The translations under genes were made by a program, and so were the position numbers. From JBFMHD01 sp040752395 [NCBI: Candidatus Hydrogenedentota bacterium] (lineage in GTDB: Bacteria > JBFMHD01), in the NCBI GenBank assembly GCA_040752395.1, contig JBFMHD010000098.1:1-9815 (forward strand): a stretch of 9,815 nucleotides of DNA, read 5' to 3'. The notes beneath the pieces are model-generated. The model was not told the origin of the DNA, did no database searches, and saw only the letters and a program-made list of their open reading frames with translations. Of this stretch, positions 1,168 through 9,815 are shown piece by piece; within the stretch, counting starts at the first letter, position 1, and each line of letters starts with the position of its first letter.

Positions 1168-1285
1168 TTTTTCAGAGGAGTCAACATGAGCGCGGGTTGC
1201 GCTCTACACTATTGTGTTATTGGGTTCTTGTGTTATTGGGTTCTTGGGTTATTGGGTTATTGCGTTCTACACAAAGGATGAAAAA
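1168..1285 (+). repeat. 118-bp structured repeat element, copy 1
   Basis: This matches 9665-9782 without any gap. In order it holds TTTTTC, a Shine-Dalgarno (GAGGAGTC), ATG, a 6-bp GC hairpin (GAGCGC 1188-1193, loop GGGTT, GCGCTC 1199-1204), TACACTA, seven 8-bp units (1212-1267: TTGTGTTA, TTGGGTTC, TTGTGTTA, TTGGGTTC, TTGGGTTA, TTGGGTTA, TTGCGTTC), TACAC and AAAGGATGAAAAA. The 8-mer array is flanked on both sides by a TTGCG(C/T)TCTACAC sequence. It lies between flgC and fliE. No transposase or target-site duplication is visible. Confidence 0.85.
1186..1281 (+). other. Possible 31-codon hydrophobic reading frame in repeat copy 1
   Basis: ATG at 1186 follows GAGGAG by 5 bases and reads 31 codons to TGA at 1279-1281. 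The product would start MSAGCALHY, be rich in V, L, G, C and W through residues 10-28, and end LHKG, like a single-span membrane peptide. The matching frame in copy 2 has the same length and ends. Against it being a gene: between the copies 9 of 10 changed codons alter the residue, and the 8-bp repeats contain no stop in any forward frame, so openness is not informative. It may simply be a by-product of the repeat. Confidence 0.25.
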
Positions 1286-1289
1286 TATA

Positions 1290-1331
1290 GGAGTTAGGAG
1301 TTTGTAATAATAGCTACGAACTCCGAACTCC
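1290..1331 (+). promoter_or_regulatory. Long stem-loop in the fliE leader
   Basis: GGAGTTAGGAGTTTGTA (1290-1306) can pair with TACGAACTCCGAACTCC (1315-1331) over 17 positions with one A-G mismatch and one U-G wobble, leaving an 8-base loop. The right arm is itself a 7-bp repeat (GAACTCC twice, then GAACTTC to 1338). The fliE Shine-Dalgarno begins 17 bases downstream. No U-tract follows, so an mRNA processing, stability or translation-control role is likelier than termination; this is inference. Confidence 0.55.
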
Positions 1332-1362
1332 GAACTTCAAAGTTTTTCGGAGGGGTGATTAA

Positions 1363-1692
1363 ATGGCTACAACAGGTGATGTGCTTAAAATAATAGCCGA
1401 CGATAAGACAAATACTATATTTCAGGCTACAAAAGCAAAACAGAAAAATGATACAACAAATACAGATAGTCTGATTGAATCGTTTCAGGATATATTTAAA
1501 GAAAAAATAAACGAAGTGGATAAATTGATTAAGCACGAAGAGGAGATGGAGATAAAGCTACAAGCAGGCGAGGTTCAAAATCTGCACGATGTGATGATAG
1601 CAGAACAAAAAGCTAAAATAGCGCTCGATTTAGCCATTGCTATAAGAAGTTTTCTGCTCTCGGCTTATGATAAACTTATCCAGCTAAGATAA
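1363..1692 (+). CDS. fliE: Flagellar hook-basal body complex protein FliE
   Basis: FliE is the small rod/MS-ring adaptor that anchors the rod to FliF and is among the first type III export substrates. The 109-residue product has a poorly conserved, lysine/threonine-rich N-terminus (1-35) and the conserved FliE half: FQDIFKEKINEVDKL (41-55), the hallmark AGEVQNLHDVMIAEQKAKIAL (68-88) and the C-terminal IRSFLLSAYDKLIQL (94-108). ATG at 1363 is preceded by GGAGGGG at 7 bases. It sits directly before fliF as in most flagellar operons. The repeat-rich leader separates it from flgC. Confidence 0.93.
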   Translation: MATTGDVLKIIADDKTNTIFQATKAKQKNDTTNTDSLIESFQDIFKEKINEVDKLIKHEEEMEIKLQAGEVQNLHDVMIAEQKAKIALDLAIAIRSFLLSAYDKLIQLR

Positions 1693-1718
1693 AGAAGTCT
1701 CTTTGGAGGGGAAACATT

Positions 1719-3377
1719 ATGCGTGAATTTTTATTAAAAGTTAAAGACCAGTTTTTAAAGTCCTGGCAGACTATGAAATTACCTCAAAAAATAATATTCA
1801 TATTTCTTCTCTCTGTCATAGTTATAACATTGTGTATCGCGATATACATATATTCAAAACCCCAGATGGTAACTATTTTAAAAGAGCTTGATTTAAAGGA
1901 TGTTGCTAAAGTAAGAGATTTTCTACAGAAAGAGGGTTACAAAGTTGACATAGGTGATGATAATAAAAGCATATTAGTTCTACGAGATCAGACCAAGGAC
2001 GCATTAGCAGACCTTGCTTCACAGGATTTAGTTCCCGGGGCTAATATTGTGGGGCTTGAAATATTCGATAAAATTAAGTTTGGTCAGACAGATTATGAAA
2101 GAAGAATAAACCTTATACGTGGTATCACAGGTGAACTGGAGCGTGTCTTACGAAAATTCCCGCATGTTAAAGATGCTAATGTGGAAATACCACTGGTTGA
2201 AGAAAGTATCTATACAGATAAACAACAGCGACTTACCGCAAGTGTAACGCTTTTTCTCGACCCGGCGGATTTTAAATTAAGTTCCAAACAAATCTCAGGC
2301 ATTAAAAGACTTATCTCTGCTTCAATAGCAGGTCTCAATCCAGAGGATGTAGCTGTATTTGACCAGGAATCAGTTGAGTTGATACCACGTACCGATGACG
2401 AAGAAGAAGCCATCGCAGTCTCAAAAGTACCGCTCCGGCTTCAAATACAGAACAGAGAAGCAAATAGACTGAAACGTGAGATAGAGGACCATCTCGGAAA
2501 AGCTTTATCACGTGATAAAGTAGAAGTAATGGTAAAAGTTGAGATGCTCTGGGATAAGATTTCAAAAGAAAGTGAGATCAAGGATTTACCCCAGTGGATG
2601 CAGCCAAAATTCGGCGGTCAACCAATCCAGCTGAAGGTTTCCAGTCTGGAGAAAAATGAGAAACTCAGAGGTGAAGGAGTTCGGCCTGAGGGTGAACCCG
2701 GACTTAAACCCAATGAACCAGTTTATAAATTCGTAAATGAAAAAGGCGAGGTGGTTTACGAAAGTCATGAAAAACGAGACAATTTTATGGACCCAAGTGT
2801 GTTCAAAGAAATAATGGAAAAAGCTGCGGATTTCAGAAGAATAACAGCAAGCGTTATTATAGATGGCGACTGGAAAAAAACTGTTACTAAAGATAATAAA
2901 ATCGAGAGAAAATACCTCCCACGAAGTGATGAATTCCTGAAAGATATTAAAGAGATAGTTATGGGAGCCATCGGCGCGGATGAATCAAGGGGAGATGTGG
3001 TTTATGTTAAATGTATACCATTTGATAGATCAAAACAGTTCGAAATAGAAGAATCAGAACTTAAAAAACACTTAATAATAAAACAATCCATTATCTGGGC
3101 GTTTATTATTACAGTATTTCTATTTATCACAACTATGGTATTCCGTGAACTCGGCCGAAGAAGAAGGATCCGAGAAGAAGAACTCGCAAGACTCCGAGAA
3201 CTCGAAAGACAGAAAGCTATCGCTGAGCAAGGACCACCAGAATTAACCCTTGAGGAACAGGAACGACTCGAATTAGTAAAACGGGCTGAAGCAATGGCTA
3301 AACAGAAACCTGAAATGGTTGCAAACCTTATTAGAACCTGGTTACAGGCTGATATGGAACGACCAGCGATTGAATGA
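1719..3377 (+). CDS. fliF: Flagellar MS-ring protein FliF
   Basis: FliF forms the MS-ring in the cytoplasmic membrane, the base on which the rotor and export gate assemble. The 552-residue product, the usual size, has a first membrane helix at about 24-46, the periplasmic YscJ/FliF ring-building domain after it (to about 220, with EIPLVEESIYTDKQQ and a run ending SIAGLNPEDVAVFD), a second periplasmic ring-building/beta-collar region, a second membrane helix at about 458-475, and an arginine/glutamate-rich cytosolic tail ending PEMVANLIRTWLQADMERP (530-548), the FliG-binding segment. GGAGGGG lies 7 bases before ATG. It follows fliE by 26 bases; fliG follows only after a 159-base gap with its own promoter. 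Confidence 0.97.
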   Translation: MREFLLKVKDQFLKSWQTMKLPQKIIFIFLLSVIVITLCIAIYIYSKPQMVTILKELDLKDVAKVRDFLQKEGYKVDIGDDNKSILVLRDQTKDALADLASQDLVPGANIVGLEIFDKIKFGQTDYERRINLIRGITGELERVLRKFPHVKDANVEIPLVEESIYTDKQQRLTASVTLFLDPADFKLSSKQISGIKRLISASIAGLNPEDVAVFDQESVELIPRTDDEEEAIAVSKVPLRLQIQNREANRLKREIEDHLGKALSRDKVEVMVKVEMLWDKISKESEIKDLPQWMQPKFGGQPIQLKVSSLEKNEKLRGEGVRPEGEPGLKPNEPVYKFVNEKGEVVYESHEKRDNFMDPSVFKEIMEKAADFRRITASVIIDGDWKKTVTKDNKIERKYLPRSDEFLKDIKEIVMGAIGADESRGDVVYVKCIPFDRSKQFEIEESELKKHLIIKQSIIWAFIITVFLFITTMVFRELGRRRRIREEELARLRELERQKAIAEQGPPELTLEEQERLELVKRAEAMAKQKPEMVANLIRTWLQADMERPAIE

Positions 3378-3395
3378 TAATGATAATTTTTATAT

Positions 3396-3424
3396 TTGCA
3401 ATTTTCTAAAAAATATGATATAAT
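3396..3424 (+). promoter_or_regulatory. Predicted vegetative promoter for fliG onward
   Basis: TTGCAA (3396-3401), a 17-base spacer and a perfect TATAAT (3419-3424) lie between fliF and fliG, giving a leader of about 105 bases. No terminator is evident after fliF, so fliG-motE may be read both from flgB and from here. The -10 and spacing are ideal, the -35 matches 4 of 6. Confidence 0.65.
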
Positions 3425-3446
3425 AAAGATTAAAAAGTTAAAAATT

Positions 3447-3495
3447 AGAAGTTAGGAGTCAGGAGTCAGACTTCTTGCTTCTTGCTTCTACTTGC
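3447..3495 (+). repeat. 7-bp-period repeat in the fliG leader
   Basis: Purine units GAAGTTA, GGAGTCA, GGAGTCA (3448-3468) are followed by pyrimidine-rich units GACTTC, TTGCTTC, TTGCTTC, TACTTGC (3469-3495). AGAAGTT (3447-3453) pairs with GACTTCT (3469-3475) to give a 7-bp stem with a 15-base loop. The array lies within the predicted 5' untranslated region of fliG. Confidence 0.7.
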
Positions 3496-3536
3496 TATTA
3501 TTAGAGTCACAATGTTTTTCAGGGGGGGATATTAAA

Positions 3537-4568
3537 ATGCCTGTAAGAAAAGTATCAACTGATGTATTACGCAAACTCACTGGCAAACAGAAAGCAGCTG
3601 TCTTTCTCGTCTCAATGGGTCAGGATGCCTCAAGTGAGGTTATGAAACATTTAAGAGACGAGGAGATAGAAGAGTTAACAATGGAGATAGCTAAATTAGA
3701 GCGTGTTACTCCTGAAGAAAAAGATGCTGTGCTATTAGAGTTTCAGGATATGATGCTGGGTCAGGAGTTCATTGCGCAGGGTGGCATAGATTATGCCAGA
3801 ACCATTCTTGAAAAAGCGCTTGGCAGTGAACGTGCTGTTGAAGTAATAAACAAACTTACCTCATCTTTACAGGTTCGACCCTTTGATTTTATGAAAGGTG
3901 CTGACCCGCAACATCTTCTAAACTTTATTCAGGGTGAACATCCACAGACAATAGCATTAATTTTATCTTATCTTGAACCTGATATGTCATCAAAGATACT
4001 TGCTTCGCTTGATGAGAAGATACAGGCTGATGTCACAAGAAGGATCGCAAAGATGGACAGAACCTCACCTGATGTATTACGCGAGGTTGAGCGGGTTCTT
4101 GAGAGAAAACTCTCGTCACTTGTAAGCGAAGAGTTCACCACAGCAGGCGGTGTTGATGCTATAGTTGAGATACTCAATCTCGTGGACCGCTCAACTGAAA
4201 AATCCATCATAGAAACGCTTGAAGATGAAGACCCAGAACTCGCTGAAGAAATAAAAAAGAGGATGTTCGTATTTGAAGATATAAAAATACTTGATGATAG
4301 AGCTGTACAACAGGTGTTAAGAGAAGTGGATACAAAAGACCTTGCGCTCGCTCTAAAAGGCGTCGATGAAACTGTCCAGACTAAAATTTTTAACAATATG
4401 TCTAAAAGAGCAGGAACAATGCTTAGAGAAGAGATGGAGTTTATGGGACCTGTTAGATTACGTGACGTTGAAGAGGCTCAGCAGAGAATAGTTAATGTTA
4501 TAAGAAAACTTGAAGAATCCGGCGAAATTATTATTGCACGCGGTGGTGAGGAGGAGTTGATTGTCTGA
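3537..4568 (+). CDS. fliG: Flagellar motor switch protein FliG
   Basis: FliG is the rotor subunit that binds FliF through its N-terminus, FliM through its middle, and meets the stator through its C-terminus, setting torque and rotation sense. The 343-residue product shows the N-terminal LTGKQKAAVFLVSMG (14-28), the middle-domain EHPQ motif (134-137, GEHPQTIALILSYLEP), MFVFEDI (243-249) and the charged torque helix region ALKGVDETVQTKIFNNMSKR (272-291) with MLREEMEFMGPVRLRDVEEA (295-314). An in-frame upstream start at 3492 is rejected: ATG at 3537 has a G-run Shine-Dalgarno (3522-3528) 8 bases before it and gives the normal FliG N-terminus. Its end overlaps fliH by 8 bases. Confidence 0.97.
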   Translation: MPVRKVSTDVLRKLTGKQKAAVFLVSMGQDASSEVMKHLRDEEIEELTMEIAKLERVTPEEKDAVLLEFQDMMLGQEFIAQGGIDYARTILEKALGSERAVEVINKLTSSLQVRPFDFMKGADPQHLLNFIQGEHPQTIALILSYLEPDMSSKILASLDEKIQADVTRRIAKMDRTSPDVLREVERVLERKLSSLVSEEFTTAGGVDAIVEILNLVDRSTEKSIIETLEDEDPELAEEIKKRMFVFEDIKILDDRAVQQVLREVDTKDLALALKGVDETVQTKIFNNMSKRAGTMLREEMEFMGPVRLRDVEEAQQRIVNVIRKLEESGEIIIARGGEEELIV

Positions 4569-5496
4569 AAATATTTTTAAAAATCCAAATATAAAAATTG
4601 ACGATAATGTCGTCGTCCTTAAAAGACCAAAACTGCGAACCGAAATACTCTACGAAGAAGAAGAGAAAAAAAAAGTATTAAGAGAAATTTTACTTAAAGA
4701 GTCCGAAGAAATAAAAGAAGCACAATCCCAGCTCGAAGCACTGCAGAAAGAAGCTGCTGAAATCATCGGTAGAGCTGAGAATAAAGCCGACGAAATATTG
4801 AAAAAAATTGAGGCCGATTGTAATAATAAAATCGTTGAGGCTGAAAGAAAAGAAAAAGAAATTTTAGAACTCGCTCAAAATGAAAAACAAAAAATCATAA
4901 CCGAAGCTAATAGTGAAAAACAAAGAATAATTGAGGAATTTCAAAAACAGGGATATGATTCAGGATATAAACAGGGGTTTGAAAAAATCAGTAAGGAAGC
5001 GCTCTCACTCCTCAAACAGGCTGATAAGGTACTTGAAAAAAGCCTCGCAATCAAACACTACATTATTGATACCGCTCGAGGTGACCTGCTCAATGTTATA
5101 AGATTGATATGTAACAAGATCCTACATAAAGAAATCTCTCTCTCTCCTGAAGTTATAACCCCTCGCGTGGAATATGCTCTGAAAAAATTACAAGAAAAAG
5201 AAAAGATAGTTGTCAGGATCCACCCTGATTCAATACCCGAACTCGAAGGACATAGAGAACATTTCTATAAAGAAATACGCGGACTCGACCACCTCGTTTT
5301 TAAAGAAGACCCTTCTCTTGAATTGGGTGACTGCATTTTAGAAACCGACTTTGGAAGTATAGATTCAAGGGTTGAATCCGAGGTCCTGGAAATTACAGAA
5401 AGACTTGATGAAATAGGACTTGACCTGGATTATCTGGATAATGTTGAGAAACAATTATTCCCTGAGGATAAAAATAATGGCCTGCCCACTAACTGA
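4561..5496 (+). CDS. fliH: Flagellar assembly protein FliH (export ATPase regulator)
   Basis: FliH forms the peripheral stalk-like dimer that ties the ATPase FliI to the C-ring and controls its activity. The 311-residue product starts with a short FliH-type segment VVVLKRP (17-23), then a long charged coiled coil (about 32-130, alanine/glutamate/lysine rich, resembling ATP synthase b subunit), GYDSGYKQGFE (131-141), and the C-terminal FliH/V-ATPase E-like domain with EDPSLELGDCILETDFGSID (249-268). The start is TTG at 4561, chosen because AGGAGG (4549-4554) lies 6 bases before it and no nearby ATG fits; it overlaps the fliG stop by 8 bases. Its own end overlaps fliI by 20 bases. Confidence 0.94.
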   Translation: MSENIFKNPNIKIDDNVVVLKRPKLRTEILYEEEEKKKVLREILLKESEEIKEAQSQLEALQKEAAEIIGRAENKADEILKKIEADCNNKIVEAERKEKEILELAQNEKQKIITEANSEKQRIIEEFQKQGYDSGYKQGFEKISKEALSLLKQADKVLEKSLAIKHYIIDTARGDLLNVIRLICNKILHKEISLSPEVITPRVEYALKKLQEKEKIVVRIHPDSIPELEGHREHFYKEIRGLDHLVFKEDPSLELGDCILETDFGSIDSRVESEVLEITERLDEIGLDLDYLDNVEKQLFPEDKNNGLPTN

Positions 5497-6787
5497 TACT
5501 TATCTCTCAATGATACCTGAAATAGAACATATAAGATTCACTGGCGCTGTAACTAAAATTATAGGACTGGTTATCGAGGCATCGGGACCCCGAGTGCCGG
5601 TCGGAGAAGTAGTACTTATAAAAAGAAAAAATAAAATACAAGCATTAAAAGCTGAGGTTGTGGGTTTTAAAGAAAATAGAGTGCTATTAATGCCGATAGG
5701 AGAGATGGAAGGTATCGCACCAGGTTGCGAGGTTATCGGAACAGACCATACTTTATCAATCCCTGTTGGACCTGAACTCCTCGGTAGAGTCTTAAATGGT
5801 ATCGGCGACCCGATGGATGGTAAAGGCGCTCTACCCTGTAAAGAAAGATATTCTATATATAGAAACCCACCTCATCCTTTGAAACGACGCAGGGTTAAAG
5901 AGATTTTATCACTCGGGGTACGAGCTATAGACGGTTTATTTACAGTCGGTCGTGGCCAGAGAATGGGGATATTTTCCGGCAGCGGTGTGGGTAAAAGTAC
6001 GCTACTTGGTATGATAGCAAGATTTACAGAGGCTGATATAAATGTTATTGGACTCATTGGTGAGCGTGGCCGTGAGGTAAGAGATTTCCTTGAAAAAGAT
6101 TTACAGGAGGACGGTTTAAAAAAATCTGTGGTCGTTGTTGCAACGAGTGACTCACCACCACTCTGCAGACTGAGGGGTGCGTTCGTTGCTACTGCCATCG
6201 CTGAGTATTTCAGAGATATAGGTAAGAACGTTCTACTACTATTTGATTCAGTGACAAGATTTGCAAGAGCTCAAAGAGAGGTCGGCCTGGCTATCGGAGA
6301 ACCGCCTGCTCAAAGGGGTTTCACACCATCAGTATTTGAGATCCTGCCACGACTCCTTGAAAGATCAGGTAATAGCGATAGAGGTTCTATAACAGGTATC
6401 TATACTGTGCTCGTCGACGGCGACGATTTTACCGAACCTATATGTGATAATGTAAGGGGTATCCTTGATGGACATGTTATACTTGTAAGAAAACTCGCTG
6501 AACGCGGTCAATATCCTGCAATAGATGTTCTTGGCTCTATAAGCAGAATTATGGTTGAGATAGTTGATGAATACCAGTTCAATAAAGCTTTGAAACTAAA
6601 AGAACTGGTATCTGTGTATCAGGATGCAGAAGACCTGATTAATATCGGCGCTTATGTAAAGGGGTCTAACACCCTGATAGACGAATCAATTAACAAAAGA
6701 AACGATATTATAAATTATCTGAAACAGGGTATCTACGAAAAAGAGGATTATATCGGCTCAAAAGAAAAACTCTTAAAATTATTTTAG
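5477..6787 (+). CDS. fliI: Flagellum-specific ATPase FliI
   Basis: FliI is the F1-beta-like hexameric ATPase of the flagellar type III export apparatus; it unloads substrates from chaperones at the export gate. The 436-residue product has the N-terminal beta-barrel (about 20-95), Walker A GSGVGKST (168-175), the catalytic-loop segment GLIGERGREV (192-201), Walker B VLLLFDS (252-258) and the signature GEPPAQRGFTPSVF (274-287). All key residues are present, including K173 and D257. An ATG 57 bases upstream in frame lies inside fliH; ATG at 5477 is preferred for its GAGGA at 8 bases and normal N-terminus. It overlaps fliH by 20 bases and precedes fliJ. Confidence 0.98.
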   Translation: MACPLTDTYLSMIPEIEHIRFTGAVTKIIGLVIEASGPRVPVGEVVLIKRKNKIQALKAEVVGFKENRVLLMPIGEMEGIAPGCEVIGTDHTLSIPVGPELLGRVLNGIGDPMDGKGALPCKERYSIYRNPPHPLKRRRVKEILSLGVRAIDGLFTVGRGQRMGIFSGSGVGKSTLLGMIARFTEADINVIGLIGERGREVRDFLEKDLQEDGLKKSVVVVATSDSPPLCRLRGAFVATAIAEYFRDIGKNVLLLFDSVTRFARAQREVGLAIGEPPAQRGFTPSVFEILPRLLERSGNSDRGSITGIYTVLVDGDDFTEPICDNVRGILDGHVILVRKLAERGQYPAIDVLGSISRIMVEIVDEYQFNKALKLKELVSVYQDAEDLINIGAYVKGSNTLIDESINKRNDIINYLKQGIYEKEDYIGSKEKLLKLF

Positions 6788-6829
6788 TTTCTGCGAGGTA
6801 TCCCCTCAGTCTTCAGTTGCGAAGGTCTT

Positions 6830-7285
6830 ATGGTCTTTAAGTTCAGGTTTGAGAGAATCCTTGGGTTACGTAAACATAAAGAAAAAGAAAAGATGGAGGA
6901 ATTAGCTAAAGAACAAAAAAAACTTTTTTTATTGTATAATGAATTAAAAAGAAATTTAGAAGAATCTGAAACAAAACTTAAAGAACTCAGAGAAAAAGAA
7001 AAAGGTATGGTAATAATAGAAGAACTCATAAGATACAGGGCTTATTTAACTAAACTTTATAAAGAAGAGGCTGCTTTGAGAAAAAAAATAAAAAAACAGG
7101 AAGAAGTAGTTGAAGAAAAAAGATTAGAATTAGTTGAAGCATCAAAAGAAAGAAGGATGATGGAAAGATTGAAAGAAAATCAAGAGAAAGAATACTGGAT
7201 TGAGTTCTGGAAACAGGATGAGAAAGTAAACGATGACCTGACCACAGCACGAACCATCGCAATGTCTGGAGAAAAAAATGGATAA
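6830..7285 (+). CDS. fliJ: Flagellar export protein FliJ
   Basis: FliJ is the coiled-coil stalk of the export ATPase, like the gamma subunit of F1, inserting in the FliI ring and contacting FlhA. The 151-residue product has the family N-terminus FKFRFERILGLRKHKEKEKM (residues 3-22) and is almost wholly charged helix with lysine/glutamate heptads to about residue 120; length matches FliJ. Sequence conservation in this family is low, so position after fliI is strong support. The start at 6830 has a weak GAAGG site 4 bases upstream; no alternative in-frame start is near. A 42-base gap separates it from fliI. Its end overlaps the next gene by 8 bases. Confidence 0.9.
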   Translation: MVFKFRFERILGLRKHKEKEKMEELAKEQKKLFLLYNELKRNLEESETKLKELREKEKGMVIIEELIRYRAYLTKLYKEEAALRKKIKKQEEVVEEKRLELVEASKERRMMERLKENQEKEYWIEFWKQDEKVNDDLTTARTIAMSGEKNG

Positions 7286-7820
7286 CTCAAGAGTAAATGA
7301 AATATTTGAACGGATACAGGAAATCCAGAATAAATGGAATGACCTCAAACAGAAAATATCAAGAATAAATAATAGAAAAAATAATAAGGATAAATTTAAG
7401 ACTATATTAAATCAGGAGGTTAATAAAAAGATAGACGAAACTGATAAAAAATGTCTTGAGAAGAAAATAGATGAGGTCTCTAAAAAATACAATGTTGACC
7501 CAAATCTAATCAAAGCGATTATAGAAGTTGAGTCGAACTGGAACAGATATGCTGTGAGCCATAGAGGCGCTAAGGGACTTATGCAGTTGATGGATATCAC
7601 GATAAGAGAGTTAGGAGTCAAAGACCCATTTGACCCTGAAGAAAACATCGAGGCAGGCACCCGATTTTTCAGCTCGCTCCTCAAAATGTACGACAATAGT
7701 CTCGAGGAGGCTCTATCAGCTTATAATTATGGCCCTTCAAAAGTAAAAAAAGGAGAGGGTGTACCTAACGTATATCAGGTGCAACAGTATGTTTCTAATA
7801 TACTTAGAAAAGTTTTATAA
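7278..7820 (+). CDS. Flagellar-operon lytic transglycosylase (SLT domain)
   Basis: Soluble-lytic-transglycosylase-like enzyme that would cleave peptidoglycan glycan strands between MurNAc and GlcNAc, probably to open the wall for the rod. The 180-residue product has a charged helical N-terminus (VNEIFERIQEIQNKW, 6-20) and an SLT domain from about 65: VDPNLIKAIIEVESNWN (73-89) with catalytic Glu85 of the ES motif, SHRGAKGLMQLM (94-105), ENIEAGTRFF (122-131) and AYNYGP (148-153). No signal peptide or membrane helix is seen, although the substrate is outside the cytoplasm; export through the flagellar type III system, as known for FlgJ-type enzymes, is the likely route (inference). ATG at 7278 overlaps fliJ by 8 bases, with GGAG 6 bases upstream. 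Confidence 0.9.
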   Translation: MDNSRVNEIFERIQEIQNKWNDLKQKISRINNRKNNKDKFKTILNQEVNKKIDETDKKCLEKKIDEVSKKYNVDPNLIKAIIEVESNWNRYAVSHRGAKGLMQLMDITIRELGVKDPFDPEENIEAGTRFFSSLLKMYDNSLEEALSAYNYGPSKVKKGEGVPNVYQVQQYVSNILRKVL

Positions 7821-7829
7821 TATACCCAA

Positions 7830-7857
7830 GAAGACAGGAGACAGAAGGTAGAAGAGG
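7830..7857 (+). repeat. 7-bp-period purine repeat overlapping the motE ribosome binding site
   Basis: Four 7-bp units, GAAGACA, GGAGACA, GAAGGTA and GAAGAGG, fill most of the 46-base gap. The last unit runs into AGGAG (7855-7859), which sits 7 bases before the ATG at 7867, so the repeat supplies the Shine-Dalgarno of the next gene. Confidence 0.7.
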
Positions 7858-7866
7858 AGTGGTTTT

Positions 7867-8472
7867 ATGCAAGAAAGAGCTAAAACAGTTTTTAAAATAA
7901 TAATTTTATTATTAATATTTTTTATTATGCTCGGTGTAACTATTTATGTCCTTGAAAAAAGTGAAATAATACACATTAAAGAAAGGTTTTATTCTGTTAT
8001 GGTGAAGATACCATATATCAGTAAATATTTCAAAGCGCCAGTGAAGATGACAGCTGAAGTATTAAAAGATGAACTCCTCTCCTGGGAAAACTCTCTAAAA
8101 ATAAAAGAAGATGATTTAAGAAAAAGAGAAGAGAAGATAAAAGCTGATGAGGAAGAACTGCTTAAAAAGAAGGTAGAACTTAAATCACGAGAGGATAACC
8201 TGAAATCGCAGGAAGAGGCATTAAGGAGTCGTAAAGAACGATATGAATCTATGGAGGCTCGGCTTAAAGAACAGGTTGAATATTACTCCGCTATGAAACC
8301 AGAGGATGCAGCTGAACTCTTAAGCAGGATTGACCAGCTCCTTGTTATTGATATATTTAGAAGAATGAACAAAGATATAGTTGTAACTATTTTAACAAAA
8401 ATGGACAAGCAGACAGCAAGCGATATATTGCGAAAAATGTCACTGGAACGTCCCGATATAGAAAACGAATAG
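7867..8472 (+). CDS. motE: MotE/YlxF-family protein (MgtE N-terminal-like domain)
   Basis: Membrane-anchored protein of the family found after fliJ in many flagellar operons (ylxF in Bacillus, MotE in alphaproteobacteria, where it assists the stator-associated periplasmic protein MotC). The 201-residue product has one N-terminal membrane helix (about 9-29, a signal anchor), a linker, a strong coiled coil (about 68-137 with repeated E/K heptads), and a C-terminal domain like the MgtE N-domain and FliG middle repeats: MKPEDAAELLSRID (143-156), DIFRRMNKDIVVTILTKMD (162-180), ASDILRKM (184-191). Topology suggests the coiled coil and helical repeats are extracytoplasmic. The exact role here is not known; the family call is sound. 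Last gene of the operon; fliK, which often follows, is absent. Confidence 0.85.
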   Translation: MQERAKTVFKIIILLLIFFIMLGVTIYVLEKSEIIHIKERFYSVMVKIPYISKYFKAPVKMTAEVLKDELLSWENSLKIKEDDLRKREEKIKADEEELLKKKVELKSREDNLKSQEEALRSRKERYESMEARLKEQVEYYSAMKPEDAAELLSRIDQLLVIDIFRRMNKDIVVTILTKMDKQTASDILRKMSLERPDIENE

Positions 8473-8609
8473 CAGGCAGACTGTCCAGGAATTCGATTTC
8501 AATATGTAATGTGTCCAGTGGAGCAGTATAAGGTAACACCTTAGAATATATGAAAAAATTAGCCGTGTCGCACTAATTTGGACAAGTCGGGAAAAAATAC
8601 AAAAAAGAT
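8473..8609. other. Convergent intergenic gap with inverted repeats
   Basis: No gene is seen. It holds TAAGGT/ACCTTA (8529-8534 and 8538-8543), a perfect 6-bp stem with a 3-base loop that could mark the end of the flagellar transcript. TGTCCA (8512-8517) and TGGACA (8579-8584) are inverted 61 bases apart and enclose both hairpins; TGTCCAG also occurs directly at 8482-8488. This could be a remnant of an insertion-sequence end, but nothing proves it. Confidence 0.4.
8553..8579 (-). terminator. Possible intrinsic terminator of the cyclo-ligase gene
   Basis: Read on the minus strand, AAATTAG, a 10-base loop and CTAATTT are followed directly by further T residues (a run of six T in all, ending at 8553), about 30 bases after the cyclo-ligase stop. 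The stem is only 7 bp and AT-rich; an alternative fold pairs GTG with CAC inside the loop. Layout fits a weak rho-independent terminator. Confidence 0.45.
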
Positions 8610-9161
8610 CTATTTTACAAAGCCGGTTTCGATAAGGATACGGTCCATTTTAACATCGTGTGGGTAAACTATATCTTTAAAACTATCAAATATCTGGAGA
8701 TTATAACATAGACCAACTTTATACATCTTTTTATTTTTTGCAAGCAGTCTATCAAAATATCCGCCTCCGCGGCCTATTCTGTACCCATGTCTATCAAACG
8801 CAAGTCCAGGGACAAAAGCTAATTCAACATTTTTTAAGTCTATTTTTTTACCAGTAGGATTCATATATTTACCTTTCCATTTCTTGAAACCCAAAGAAGA
8901 ATTAAATCGCCGGACTTCTATTTGTGAAGGTTCGCCGGTGTAAACCGGTGCGCACAGAATTTTTTTCTTTTTTATCAGGAGATCGTACAAATCACGCAGG
9001 TCTGGTTCGTCAGGCAGAGGGAAATATCCAAGAATCACTTCCTGATCTTTAATAATATCGTTCTGCAATATCTCAATCATTCGTTTATCATAAATCTTTT
9101 TATTCTTTTTAATTGTTTCGAGCCGCTTCTGGATCATAAATCTAAAATCTTCTTTTTCCAT
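8610..9161 (-). CDS. fau: 5-formyltetrahydrofolate cyclo-ligase
   Basis: Also called methenyltetrahydrofolate synthetase (YgfA/YqgN family): it uses ATP to turn 5-formyl-THF into 5,10-methenyl-THF, recycling an inhibitory folate in the cytosol. The 183-residue product, near the family norm, has a basic N-terminal helix (KRLETIKKNKK), YFPLPDEPDL (46-55), and the diagnostic VPGLAFDRHGYRIGRGGGYF (118-137) followed by DR, where the glycine-rich loop binds ATP phosphates; PHDVKMD (167-173) near the end is also typical. A TTG start three codons upstream is possible but abuts the Shine-Dalgarno; ATG at 9161 has AAGG 9 bases before it. It stands alone, convergent with the flagellar operon and divergent from the Trm112-like gene. 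Confidence 0.94.
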   Translation of the reverse strand: MEKEDFRFMIQKRLETIKKNKKIYDKRMIEILQNDIIKDQEVILGYFPLPDEPDLRDLYDLLIKKKKILCAPVYTGEPSQIEVRRFNSSLGFKKWKGKYMNPTGKKIDLKNVELAFVPGLAFDRHGYRIGRGGGYFDRLLAKNKKMYKVGLCYNLQIFDSFKDIVYPHDVKMDRILIETGFVK

Positions 9162-9184
9162 AGCTATCAACCTTATTACAAATT

Positions 9185-9212
9185 AGTTTAAAAATATTTA
9201 TAAAAATGTCAA
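9185..9212 (-). promoter_or_regulatory. Predicted promoter of the cyclo-ligase gene
   Basis: On the minus strand a perfect TTGACA (plus-strand 9207-9212) and TAAACT (9185-9190) are separated by 16 bases, which puts the start of transcription close to the ATG at 9161 with a leader of roughly 15-20 bases. The -10 matches 4 of 6; the surroundings are very AT-rich, so other -10 choices exist. Confidence 0.5.
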
Positions 9213-9223
9213 CAAAAAAATAG

Positions 9224-9252
9224 TTGCATCAAATTTAATTTTTGAGTATAAT
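9224..9252 (+). promoter_or_regulatory. Predicted vegetative promoter of the Trm112-like gene
   Basis: TTGCAT (9224-9229), a 17-base spacer and a perfect TATAAT (9247-9252) face rightwards, divergent from the cyclo-ligase promoter. The same -35 and spacing occur before flgB and fliG. Transcription would start near 9259, giving an unusually long leader of about 190 bases for a 63-codon gene. Confidence 0.65.
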
Positions 9253-9270
9253 ATATATAAAGCAAAGATA

Positions 9271-9438
9271 GGAGACAGAAGACAGAAGACAGGAGGAGAA
9301 GACACAAAGGATATTAGGGGATGGGTCATAGGGGATGGGGTATATTAGGGGCGGCGCTTAGGGGTTAGGGGTCCGGAGTCGAGAGTCGTGAGTCAGGATA
9401 AGACTGACGACTTAATGACCGGAGACTAGAGACTTTTC
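9271..9438 (+). repeat. Repeat-rich leader: 7-bp arrays and a G-run cluster
   Basis: Positions 9271-9298 hold GGAGACA, GAAGACA, GAAGACA, GGAGGAG. Positions 9317-9371 contain seven runs of three or four G. Positions 9375-9395 hold GGAGTCG, AGAGTCG, TGAGTCA, and GTCAG (9392-9396) can pair with CTGAC (9404-9408), extended by AGTC (9384-9387) with GACT (9409-9412) across a bulge. The whole stretch lies in the predicted untranslated leader of the next gene and shows no coding potential. Confidence 0.65.
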
Positions 9439-9452
9439 AGAGGAGATTATTT

Positions 9453-9644
9453 ATGACTGAAGAAAGAGATATGATAGACGATGAATTACTGGCTATACTT
9501 GCGTGCCCGGCGTGTAAAGGCGATATAGAATATGACAAACCCAATCAGAAACTTATCTGCAAAGGTGAATGCGGCAGAAGGTATCCGATAAGAGAAGGGA
9601 TACCGATTATGCTTATCGATGAAGCTGAATTACCATCTAAATGA
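9453..9644 (+). CDS. Trm112/YcaR-family zinc-ribbon protein
   Basis: Small zinc-ribbon-like protein of the Trm112p/UPF0434 family. Eukaryotic Trm112 activates several methyltransferases; the role of bacterial stand-alone members is not settled. The 63-residue product shows LLAILACPACKGDIEY (12-27) with C18 and C21, then C36 and C40 (LICKGECG, a CX3C pair), and the hallmark RRYPIREGIPIMLIDEAEL (42-60). All four candidate zinc ligands are present. ATG at 9453 is chosen for its GAGGAG (9440-9445) 7 bases upstream; an ATG at codon 7 lacks one. It appears monocistronic, with a repeat-filled leader and a repeat element after it. Confidence 0.92.
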   Translation: MTEERDMIDDELLAILACPACKGDIEYDKPNQKLICKGECGRRYPIREGIPIMLIDEAELPSK

Positions 9645-9664
9645 TAGGAGATAGTGGATCTGAC

Positions 9665-9782
9665 TTTTTCGAAGGAGTCGTAATGAGCGCACTTTGCGCT
9701 CTACACTATTGGGTTCTTGGGTTCTTGGGTTCTTGGGTTCTTGCGTTTTTGGGTTTTTGCGCTCTACACAAAGGATGAAAAA
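9665..9782 (+). repeat. 118-bp structured repeat element, copy 2
   Basis: Ungapped match to 1168-1285. It has TTTTTC (9665-9670), AAGGAGTC, ATG (9683), the GC hairpin GAGCGC/GCGCTC (9685-9690 and 9696-9701, loop ACTTT), TACACTA, seven 8-bp units (9709-9764: TTGGGTTC four times, TTGCGTTT, TTGGGTTT, TTGCGCTC), TACAC and AAAGGATGAAAAA. Over the 96 bases from ATG to TGA it differs from copy 1 at 11 positions. GACTTTTTCGAAGGAGTC (9662-9679) is a near-perfect palindrome counting U-G pairs and could hide the Shine-Dalgarno. It starts about 20 bases after the Trm112-like stop. Confidence 0.85.
9683..9778 (+). other. Possible 31-codon hydrophobic reading frame in repeat copy 2
   Basis: ATG at 9683, 5 bases after AAGGAG, opens 31 codons to TGA at 9776-9778. 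The product would start MSALCALHYWVLGFL and end FCALHKG, a hydrophobic span with few charges. Same length and ends as the frame in copy 1, but changes between the copies are nearly all residue-altering, which argues against selection on the peptide. Kept as a possibility only. Confidence 0.25.
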
Positions 9783-9815
9783 CTAAAGATGATATAAAAA
9801 GAGTCGTGAGTCACA
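9783..9815 (+). repeat. Right-edge AT stretch with start of another GAGTC repeat
   Basis: After the element the sequence is AT-rich and ends with GAGTCGTGAGTCAC, two units of the 7-bp GAGTC family also present at 9375-9395. It is cut by the window edge. Confidence 0.5.

Follow-up and report, generated by a model that had tools for sequence, protein, structure and literature searches.

The window analysed here, 9,815 bases at the start of contig JBFMHD010000098.1, carries a flagellar gene cluster, as identified by open reading frame (ORF) calls and Pfam and NCBIfam scans. It also carries a 118-base composite repeat, which occurs once in the gap between flgC and fliE (copy 1) and once 3' of a Trm112-like gene (copy 2). 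The copies, at 1168-1285 and 9665-9782, align without gaps and are identical at 102 of 118 bases (86%, 16 differences). A preliminary description of this DNA had given these coordinates, the ungapped 118-bp alignment and seven 8-bp units per copy, all of which were correct on recheck.

A module of fixed blocks and free spacers

Both copies follow the order TTTTTC-NN-AGGAGTC-NNN-ATGAGCGC-NNN-TTGCGCTCTACACTA-(TTGNGTTN)n-TACACAAAGGATGAAAAA, with n = 7 in each. The parts of the module, and the fliE leader that resembles its head, are as follows.

1168-1285, + strand: composite repeat copy 1, 118 bases, between flgC and fliE
1168-1182, + strand: leader TTTTTC-NN-AGGAGTC with Shine-Dalgarno sequence
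1186-1281, + strand: 31-codon ORF of copy 1, MSAGCALHYCVIGFLCYWVLGLLGYCVLHKG, then TGA
1188-1204, + strand: GC hairpin GAGCGC-NNNTT-GCGCTC, whose first base is the G of the start codon
1212-1267, + strand: array of copy 1, seven TTGNGTTN units in the order A B A B C C D
1268-1285, + strand: invariant 3' block TACACAAAGGATGAAAAA of copy 1, 0 differences between copies
1344-1365, + strand: fliE leader TTTTC-NN-AGGGG and ATG, of the leader type found in the repeat
9665-9782, + strand: composite repeat copy 2, after the Trm112-like gene
9683-9778, + strand: 31-codon ORF of copy 2, MSALCALHYWVLGFLGSWVLAFLGFCALHKG, then TGA
9685-9701, + strand: GC hairpin of copy 2, GAGCGC-NNNTT-GCGCTC
9709-9764, + strand: array of copy 2, seven TTGNGTTN units in the order B B B B E F G, the last being TTGCGCTC
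9765-9782, + strand: invariant 3' block TACACAAAGGATGAAAAA of copy 2

Compared with copy 1, the 26-base head and tail of copy 2 match at 23 and 25 of 26 bases, and the next-best sites in the window reach 17 and 19. The view that this is a defined element is supported, to the extent that one module recurs in two gaps between genes with its order and spacing kept. Within it, TTGCGYTCTACAC occurs twice per copy at a spacing of 63 bases (1197 and 1260; 9694 and 9757), each time with 0 mismatches. Allowing up to two mismatches, the chance expectation is a mean of 0.20, and four occurrences were reached in 0 of 200 shuffles. The array had been described as flanked on both sides by TTGCGYTCTACAC-like sequence. 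The four exact occurrences bear this out, but the right-hand one contains unit seven, so that bound and array overlap.

The differences between the copies are not scattered. Outside the array (62 bases) there are eight, in three runs at composite positions 7-8, 16-18 and 27-29, which correspond to the gap between TTTTTC and the Shine-Dalgarno sequence, the gap between the Shine-Dalgarno sequence and the ATG, and the hairpin loop (P = 1.7e-4 for three or fewer runs). Judged from sequence, this placement suggests that the copies hold blocks fixed and let spacers drift. Differences confined to spacers and a loop are also more in keeping with preserved blocks than with a mobile element whose copies decay freely. 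The array itself (56 bases) contains the other eight differences, seven of them at unit position 4 or 8 (binomial P = 3.8e-4). Across the 14 units, positions 1, 2, 3, 5 and 7 are invariant and position 6 varies once.

Translation start, peptide and folding

Each copy contains AGGAG, five bases, an ATG, 30 further codons and a TGA. The leader pattern TTTTC-NN-RGGRG occurs five times on the + strand of the window, each time 5-9 bases 5' of an ATG: in both copies and at three ordinary genes, namely fliE (1344), fliG (3516) and the Trm112-like gene (9434). Shuffles of the + strand (200) contain it 0.03 times on average and once at most. The minus strand has one occurrence, with no ATG in the bases inspected after it. 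With a leader that fliE, fliG and the Trm112-like gene also have, the repeat begins like an ordinary gene of this organism, a resemblance that the preliminary description did not mention. The U-rich stretch 5' of the Shine-Dalgarno sequence may be a general translation signal here.

The two predicted peptides differ at 9 of 31 residues, and 10 of the 11 base changes fall in codons that specify different residues in the two copies. Synonymous changes thus amount to 1 of 11, compared with 24-25% expected at random (P = 0.20 for one or fewer at 25%, with few changes to count), and the changes are spread over first, second and third codon positions as three, five and three. Purifying selection on the peptide is therefore not visible, and neutrality is not proven either. 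Both peptides have a hydrophobic core, with a top 19-residue Kyte-Doolittle mean of 2.19 in copy 1 and 2.01 in copy 2, and identical ends. The array yields a similar hydrophobic octapeptide cycle in each of the three forward frames, and we conclude that hydrophobicity is a by-product of the octamer.

These observations bear on the possibility that the repeat is a multicopy gene for a small membrane peptide. The type I toxins Ldr and Ibs are dispersed hydrophobic peptide genes, and the repeat resembles them in encoding a short hydrophobic peptide with a ribosome-binding site. The shared length of 31 residues, the core and the common ends would fit such a gene, as would the extent of the shared segment, which starts at the ribosome-binding site and ends four bases beyond the stop. 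Residue-altering changes that do not favour third codon positions, and hydrophobicity that any forward frame of the octamer would supply, make this quite unlikely. Furthermore, neither peptide has a match in Pfam, NCBIfam or PADLOC. A PHROG search returned a single family without assigned function for the copy 1 peptide (E = 0.066) and none for copy 2, and a tblastn search of plasmids with the copy 2 peptide found no match.

The folding of the repeat depends on the strand. Taken alone, the module folds no differently from shuffled sequence on the + strand (z = -0.25 for copy 1, 0.17 for copy 2). The minus strand folds better, with z = -3.24 in copy 1 (0 of 200 shuffles as good) and -1.81 in copy 2 (9 of 200). 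For the whole flgC-fliE gap, 1114-1365, the fold is better than that of shuffles on either strand (z = -2.49 on +, -3.83 on minus) and in each case includes a stem that inverted heptamers form on the right-hand side of the repeat. The GC hairpin of copy 1 appears in the fold of 1114-1365 but is missing from the minimum fold of copy 1 alone; that of copy 2 is present in the minimum fold of copy 2 alone. Rfam returned 0 families at gathering score across the window, and at a lax threshold, applied to 1114-1365, two matches far under the cut-off (best E = 0.26, 15.3 bits compared with 59.6). A scan for intrinsic terminators predicted five sites, none at either copy.

A cis-acting leader RNA is possible, though on the unlikely side. 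The start codon would sit at the foot of the hairpin, the GCGYTC at the end of the array could serve as an alternative partner, and array length would set a translation/read-through switch. Neither half of the stem differs between the copies, in contrast to the loop NNN with changes at all three bases, and the one array change outside unit positions 4 and 8 (T or C at composite position 98) retains pairing with GAGCGC as G-U or G-C. The presence of the hairpin in the folds of the gap and of copy 2, and the + strand score of the gap, also argue for such an RNA. On the other hand, the module alone folds no better than chance on the + strand and copy 1 loses the hairpin in its own minimum fold. 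Fixed stems offer no covariation, and the only Rfam matches in the gap are unconvincing ones. The window also ends 33 bases 3' of copy 2 with no downstream gene inside it.

The minus-strand scores would instead suit a functional RNA or structural element read from that strand, in which an unstructured A/C-rich array lies between hairpins and is closed by TTTTTC and GAAAAA. This appears improbable, since the free positions separate a + strand leader, a Shine-Dalgarno sequence and an ATG, an arrangement that a minus-strand RNA leaves unexplained; nor does it have an Rfam family at gathering score.

A G-quadruplex array was rejected as highly improbable. Copy 2 has four GGG tracts at five-base spacing, but copy 1 has no match with loops up to seven, and unit position 4, which determines GGG, is free.

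Octamer arrays and the search for further copies

The array of copy 1 reads TTGTGTTA TTGGGTTC TTGTGTTA TTGGGTTC TTGGGTTA TTGGGTTA TTGCGTTC, and that of copy 2 consists of four TTGGGTTC followed by TTGCGTTT TTGGGTTT TTGCGCTC. Copy 1 thus repeats a 16-base unit pair (ABAB) where copy 2 has BBBB.

Similar arrays occur elsewhere. Four TTGNGTTN units followed by TTG are found in 10 stretches in IMG/VR. Two stretches of one contig, IMGVR_UViG_3300001533_002010, were examined and contain 12 TTGNGTTC arrays with at least three perfect units, numbering 8, 3, 4, 11, 5, 6, 3, 10, 4, 12, 3 and 5. Among these 74 perfect units position 4 is G in 30, A in 16, T in 14 and C in 14, and position 8 is always C. 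As the perfect-unit pattern left positions 4 and 8 free, units were counted again with a tolerance of two mismatches to TTGGGTTC. This looser count gives 95 units, with G in 35, A in 23, C in 20 and T in 17 at position 4 and one base in 87-95 of 95 at the other positions. All 12 arrays lie on the minus strand of the two stretches, although ORFs are predicted there on both strands; a replication-strand effect is one thought for this one-sidedness.

BLAST searches with the copy 1 array matched two Vibrionaceae plasmid records, both with TTGGGTTA arrays, and 17 of 5426 Escherichia coli genomes. Two E. coli strains were examined and carry five and four perfect TTGGGTTA units in the gap between ydeI and dgcZ. 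The E. coli array is placed upstream of the diguanylate cyclase gene dgcZ.

The arrays of the repeat share head-to-tail 8-bp units with such octamer microsatellites. Their unit number is seven and seven, from two copies only, compared with 3-12 in the one IMG/VR contig and five and four in E. coli. These ranges indicate that octamer arrays are a recurrent, length-changing intergenic microsatellite, and two equal arrays therefore prove little. The equal unit number had been called odd for a tandem array. Seven units are indeed present in both copies, but the argument is weak with n = 2, given that equal numbers of units also occur in 5 of 66 array pairs of the IMG/VR contig (7 of 78 by the looser count).

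The search for further copies relied on pattern scans that required exact letters, which diverged copies would escape. Exact patterns of the module ends gave 0 stretches in viral_contigs, and a looser tail gave two chance stretches with no array within 150 bases 5' of the match. An exact tail scan of genome_contigs gave one chance stretch, in a Clostridia bacterium, without any array. Among 398 genomes of the phylum of that bacterium, one had BLAST matches to copy 2 (46 and 45 bases, 81%). Both are to the array part of the query and lack two consecutive perfect TTGNGTTN units; the phylum is not known to be that of the window, and the result is a background figure. With the region 1100-1400 as query, BLAST found no match in phages and two plasmid records in the array region only, and a FliI query matched no relative in viral_contigs. 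TTGGGTTCTTGGGTTC does not occur in the literature searched, and we make no claim about the module being missing from print outside those searches.

The preliminary description had proposed a non-autonomous mobile or structural element, and on the evidence of its ends and flanks the repeat may or may not be mobile. No target-site duplication occurs within 10 bases either side of each copy (flanks ...CACG/TATA... and ...TGAC/CTAA...). The terminal inverted match TTTTTC/GAAAAA is only six bases long (seven in copy 1), and its 5' half is also part of the common gene leader. The preliminary description had noted the lack of a transposase, and a Pfam scan agrees, with 0 transposases among 12 window ORFs (smaller and overlapping ORFs lay outside the scan). 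MITEs and REP-type elements are small modules without a transposase of their own that occupy several intergenic sites. The repeat resembles them as a small transposase-free module in more than one intergenic site and differs in its short terminal match and the lack of a visible target-site duplication. The available part of a study of Bradyrhizobium REP-type elements offers no resemblance to the module (PMC5082802).

Possible role of the repeat and its setting

We tentatively read the repeat as a dispersed intergenic element with its own translation start that is translated as a spacer within operons, in a manner of working similar to that of mycobacterial interspersed repetitive units (MIRUs). 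This reading may well be wrong, but it makes sense of the Shine-Dalgarno sequence, ATG, open frame and TGA that are kept in both copies. The module would be transcribed together with its neighbours, and ribosomes could initiate at its own ATG and continue through the array as far as the TGA. Operons such as flgC-fliE could then harbour the module with no long untranslated gap, because it would itself be translated. What is kept would be the nucleic-acid word pattern and translatability rather than the peptide. With 4, 7 or 10 units, the peptide would have the same length in both copies (23, 31 or 39 residues).

Several observations weigh against this reading. The array is free of stops in all three forward frames regardless of its history, and other unit numbers from 3 to 12 end differently yet still within 23-53 residues. 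The ATG that overlaps the TGA as ATGA opens nine codons at 1278 in copy 1 and three at 9775 in copy 2, and does not lead into fliE. Both tests of where the differences fall were picked after the pattern had been seen, on two copies only. A plainer cause of the fixed and free unit positions may be that units were copied from one another. The pattern at positions 4 and 8 may stem from such amplification, since position 4 is also free in the unrelated IMG/VR contig. Finally, the arrays are 86% identical in register (56 bases), compared with 88% when shifted by 16 (40 bases) and 91% when shifted by 24 (32 bases). They align no better in register than shifted, and unit-by-unit descent is therefore not established. 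Together with ABAB opposite BBBB, this alignment leads us to infer that unit turnover may have taken place in one array or both with no net change in number.

The shifted alignment also favours a plain duplication, in which the repeat is not a unit: a leader typical of gene starts happened to join an octamer microsatellite of a widespread type, and one ordinary duplication without function accounts for whatever else the copies share. Arrays of TTGNGTT turn up in unrelated sequences, leaders of this type are common in the window, and no third copy appeared in the scans. This explanation nevertheless seems unlikely. A hairpin and an 18-base tail free of differences also belong to the shared segment, at fixed spacing, and outside the array the placement of the differences departs from that of plain decay.

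An extension of the translated-spacer reading, and a fairly unlikely one, is that the copies belong to a family of dispersed, self-starting translated cassettes. Their octamer number would be locked to the frame (4, 7, 10 and so on), and TTGNGTTN would be read by the ribosome or an RNA-binding protein, leaving the peptide free to change.

MIRUs, which are present in many copies per genome, are a close comparison for a translated spacer. Like them, the repeat is a short interspersed intergenic element with an internal ORF, here in two copies of 31 codons each. MIRUs appear to be mobile and to insert at start codons, where the MIRU ORF is coupled to the gene with a spacing of -4, according to the available part of a review (PMC12548453). 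The overlap of stop and ATG as ATGA is shared with that description (PMC12548453). Here, however, the overlapping ATG opens only the short frames given above, and fliE starts separately at 1363, 81 bases 3' of the copy 1 TGA and with its own ribosome-binding site. The available description of MIRUs also contains no octamer array (PMC12548453). As the coupling feature failed, we do not class the module as a MIRU despite the MIRU-like working proposed for it.

Two other families of intergenic tandem repeats share features with the array. The heptamers GGGNATC and GGGGA(C/T)T of Xanthomonas and Nostoc form arrays of 2-26 units, with four preferred, and are likewise G-containing tandem units enriched in non-coding DNA, with a degenerate position in GGGNATC (PMC4692102). 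They differ in unit length (seven bases as against eight), and the available part of that account describes no common module around the arrays (PMC4692102). The TAACTGA direct repeats of Beggiatoaceae, Cyanobacteria and Bacteroidetes are also intergenic tandem units, lie mostly near start codons in one genome and have a proposed role in translation, as far as the available text goes (PMC4679880). In that account the repeats of the BOGUAY genome overlap the position expected for a ribosome-binding site, and few canonical sites occur, whereas the array here lies 3' of a Shine-Dalgarno sequence and ATG (PMC4679880).

If more copies are confirmed, the repeat would be a further case, alongside MIRUs, of an intergenic repeat made harmless in operons through its own translation. 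It would also be a natural test of whether a reading frame can stop the slippage of an octamer microsatellite. With two copies it is a modest, well-described lead.

The genes of the window are listed below. The window end at 9815 is 33 bases past copy 2, and any gene downstream there would lie outside it.

215-652: flgB
652-1113: flgC
1363-1692: fliE
1719-3377: fliF
3' of fliF: fliG, fliH and fliI
After fliI: a FliJ-like gene, with a Pfam FliJ match below its cut-off
After the FliJ-like gene: a transglycosylase gene, then a gene with an MgtE_N-like match
After the MgtE_N-like gene, on the opposite strand: a 5-formyltetrahydrofolate cyclo-ligase gene
After the cyclo-ligase gene, starting at 9453: the Trm112-like gene

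Other small repeats lie in the intergenic sequence of the window. A perfect 7-base inverted repeat without a T run, TTCGGTT-CACTGAT-AACCGAA, is located between flgC and copy 1 (1131-1151), and its own arms are not paired together in the fold of 1114-1365. Arrays of 7-bp units occur at 1288-1336, 3435-3489, 9265-9304 and 9376-9394, with the units TAGGAGT, CGAACTC, AAGTTAG, CTTCTTG, AAGACAG and GAGTCGA. Those at 1288-1302 and 1317-1336, just 5' of fliE, are mutually inverted and pair with each other in the fold of 1114-1365.

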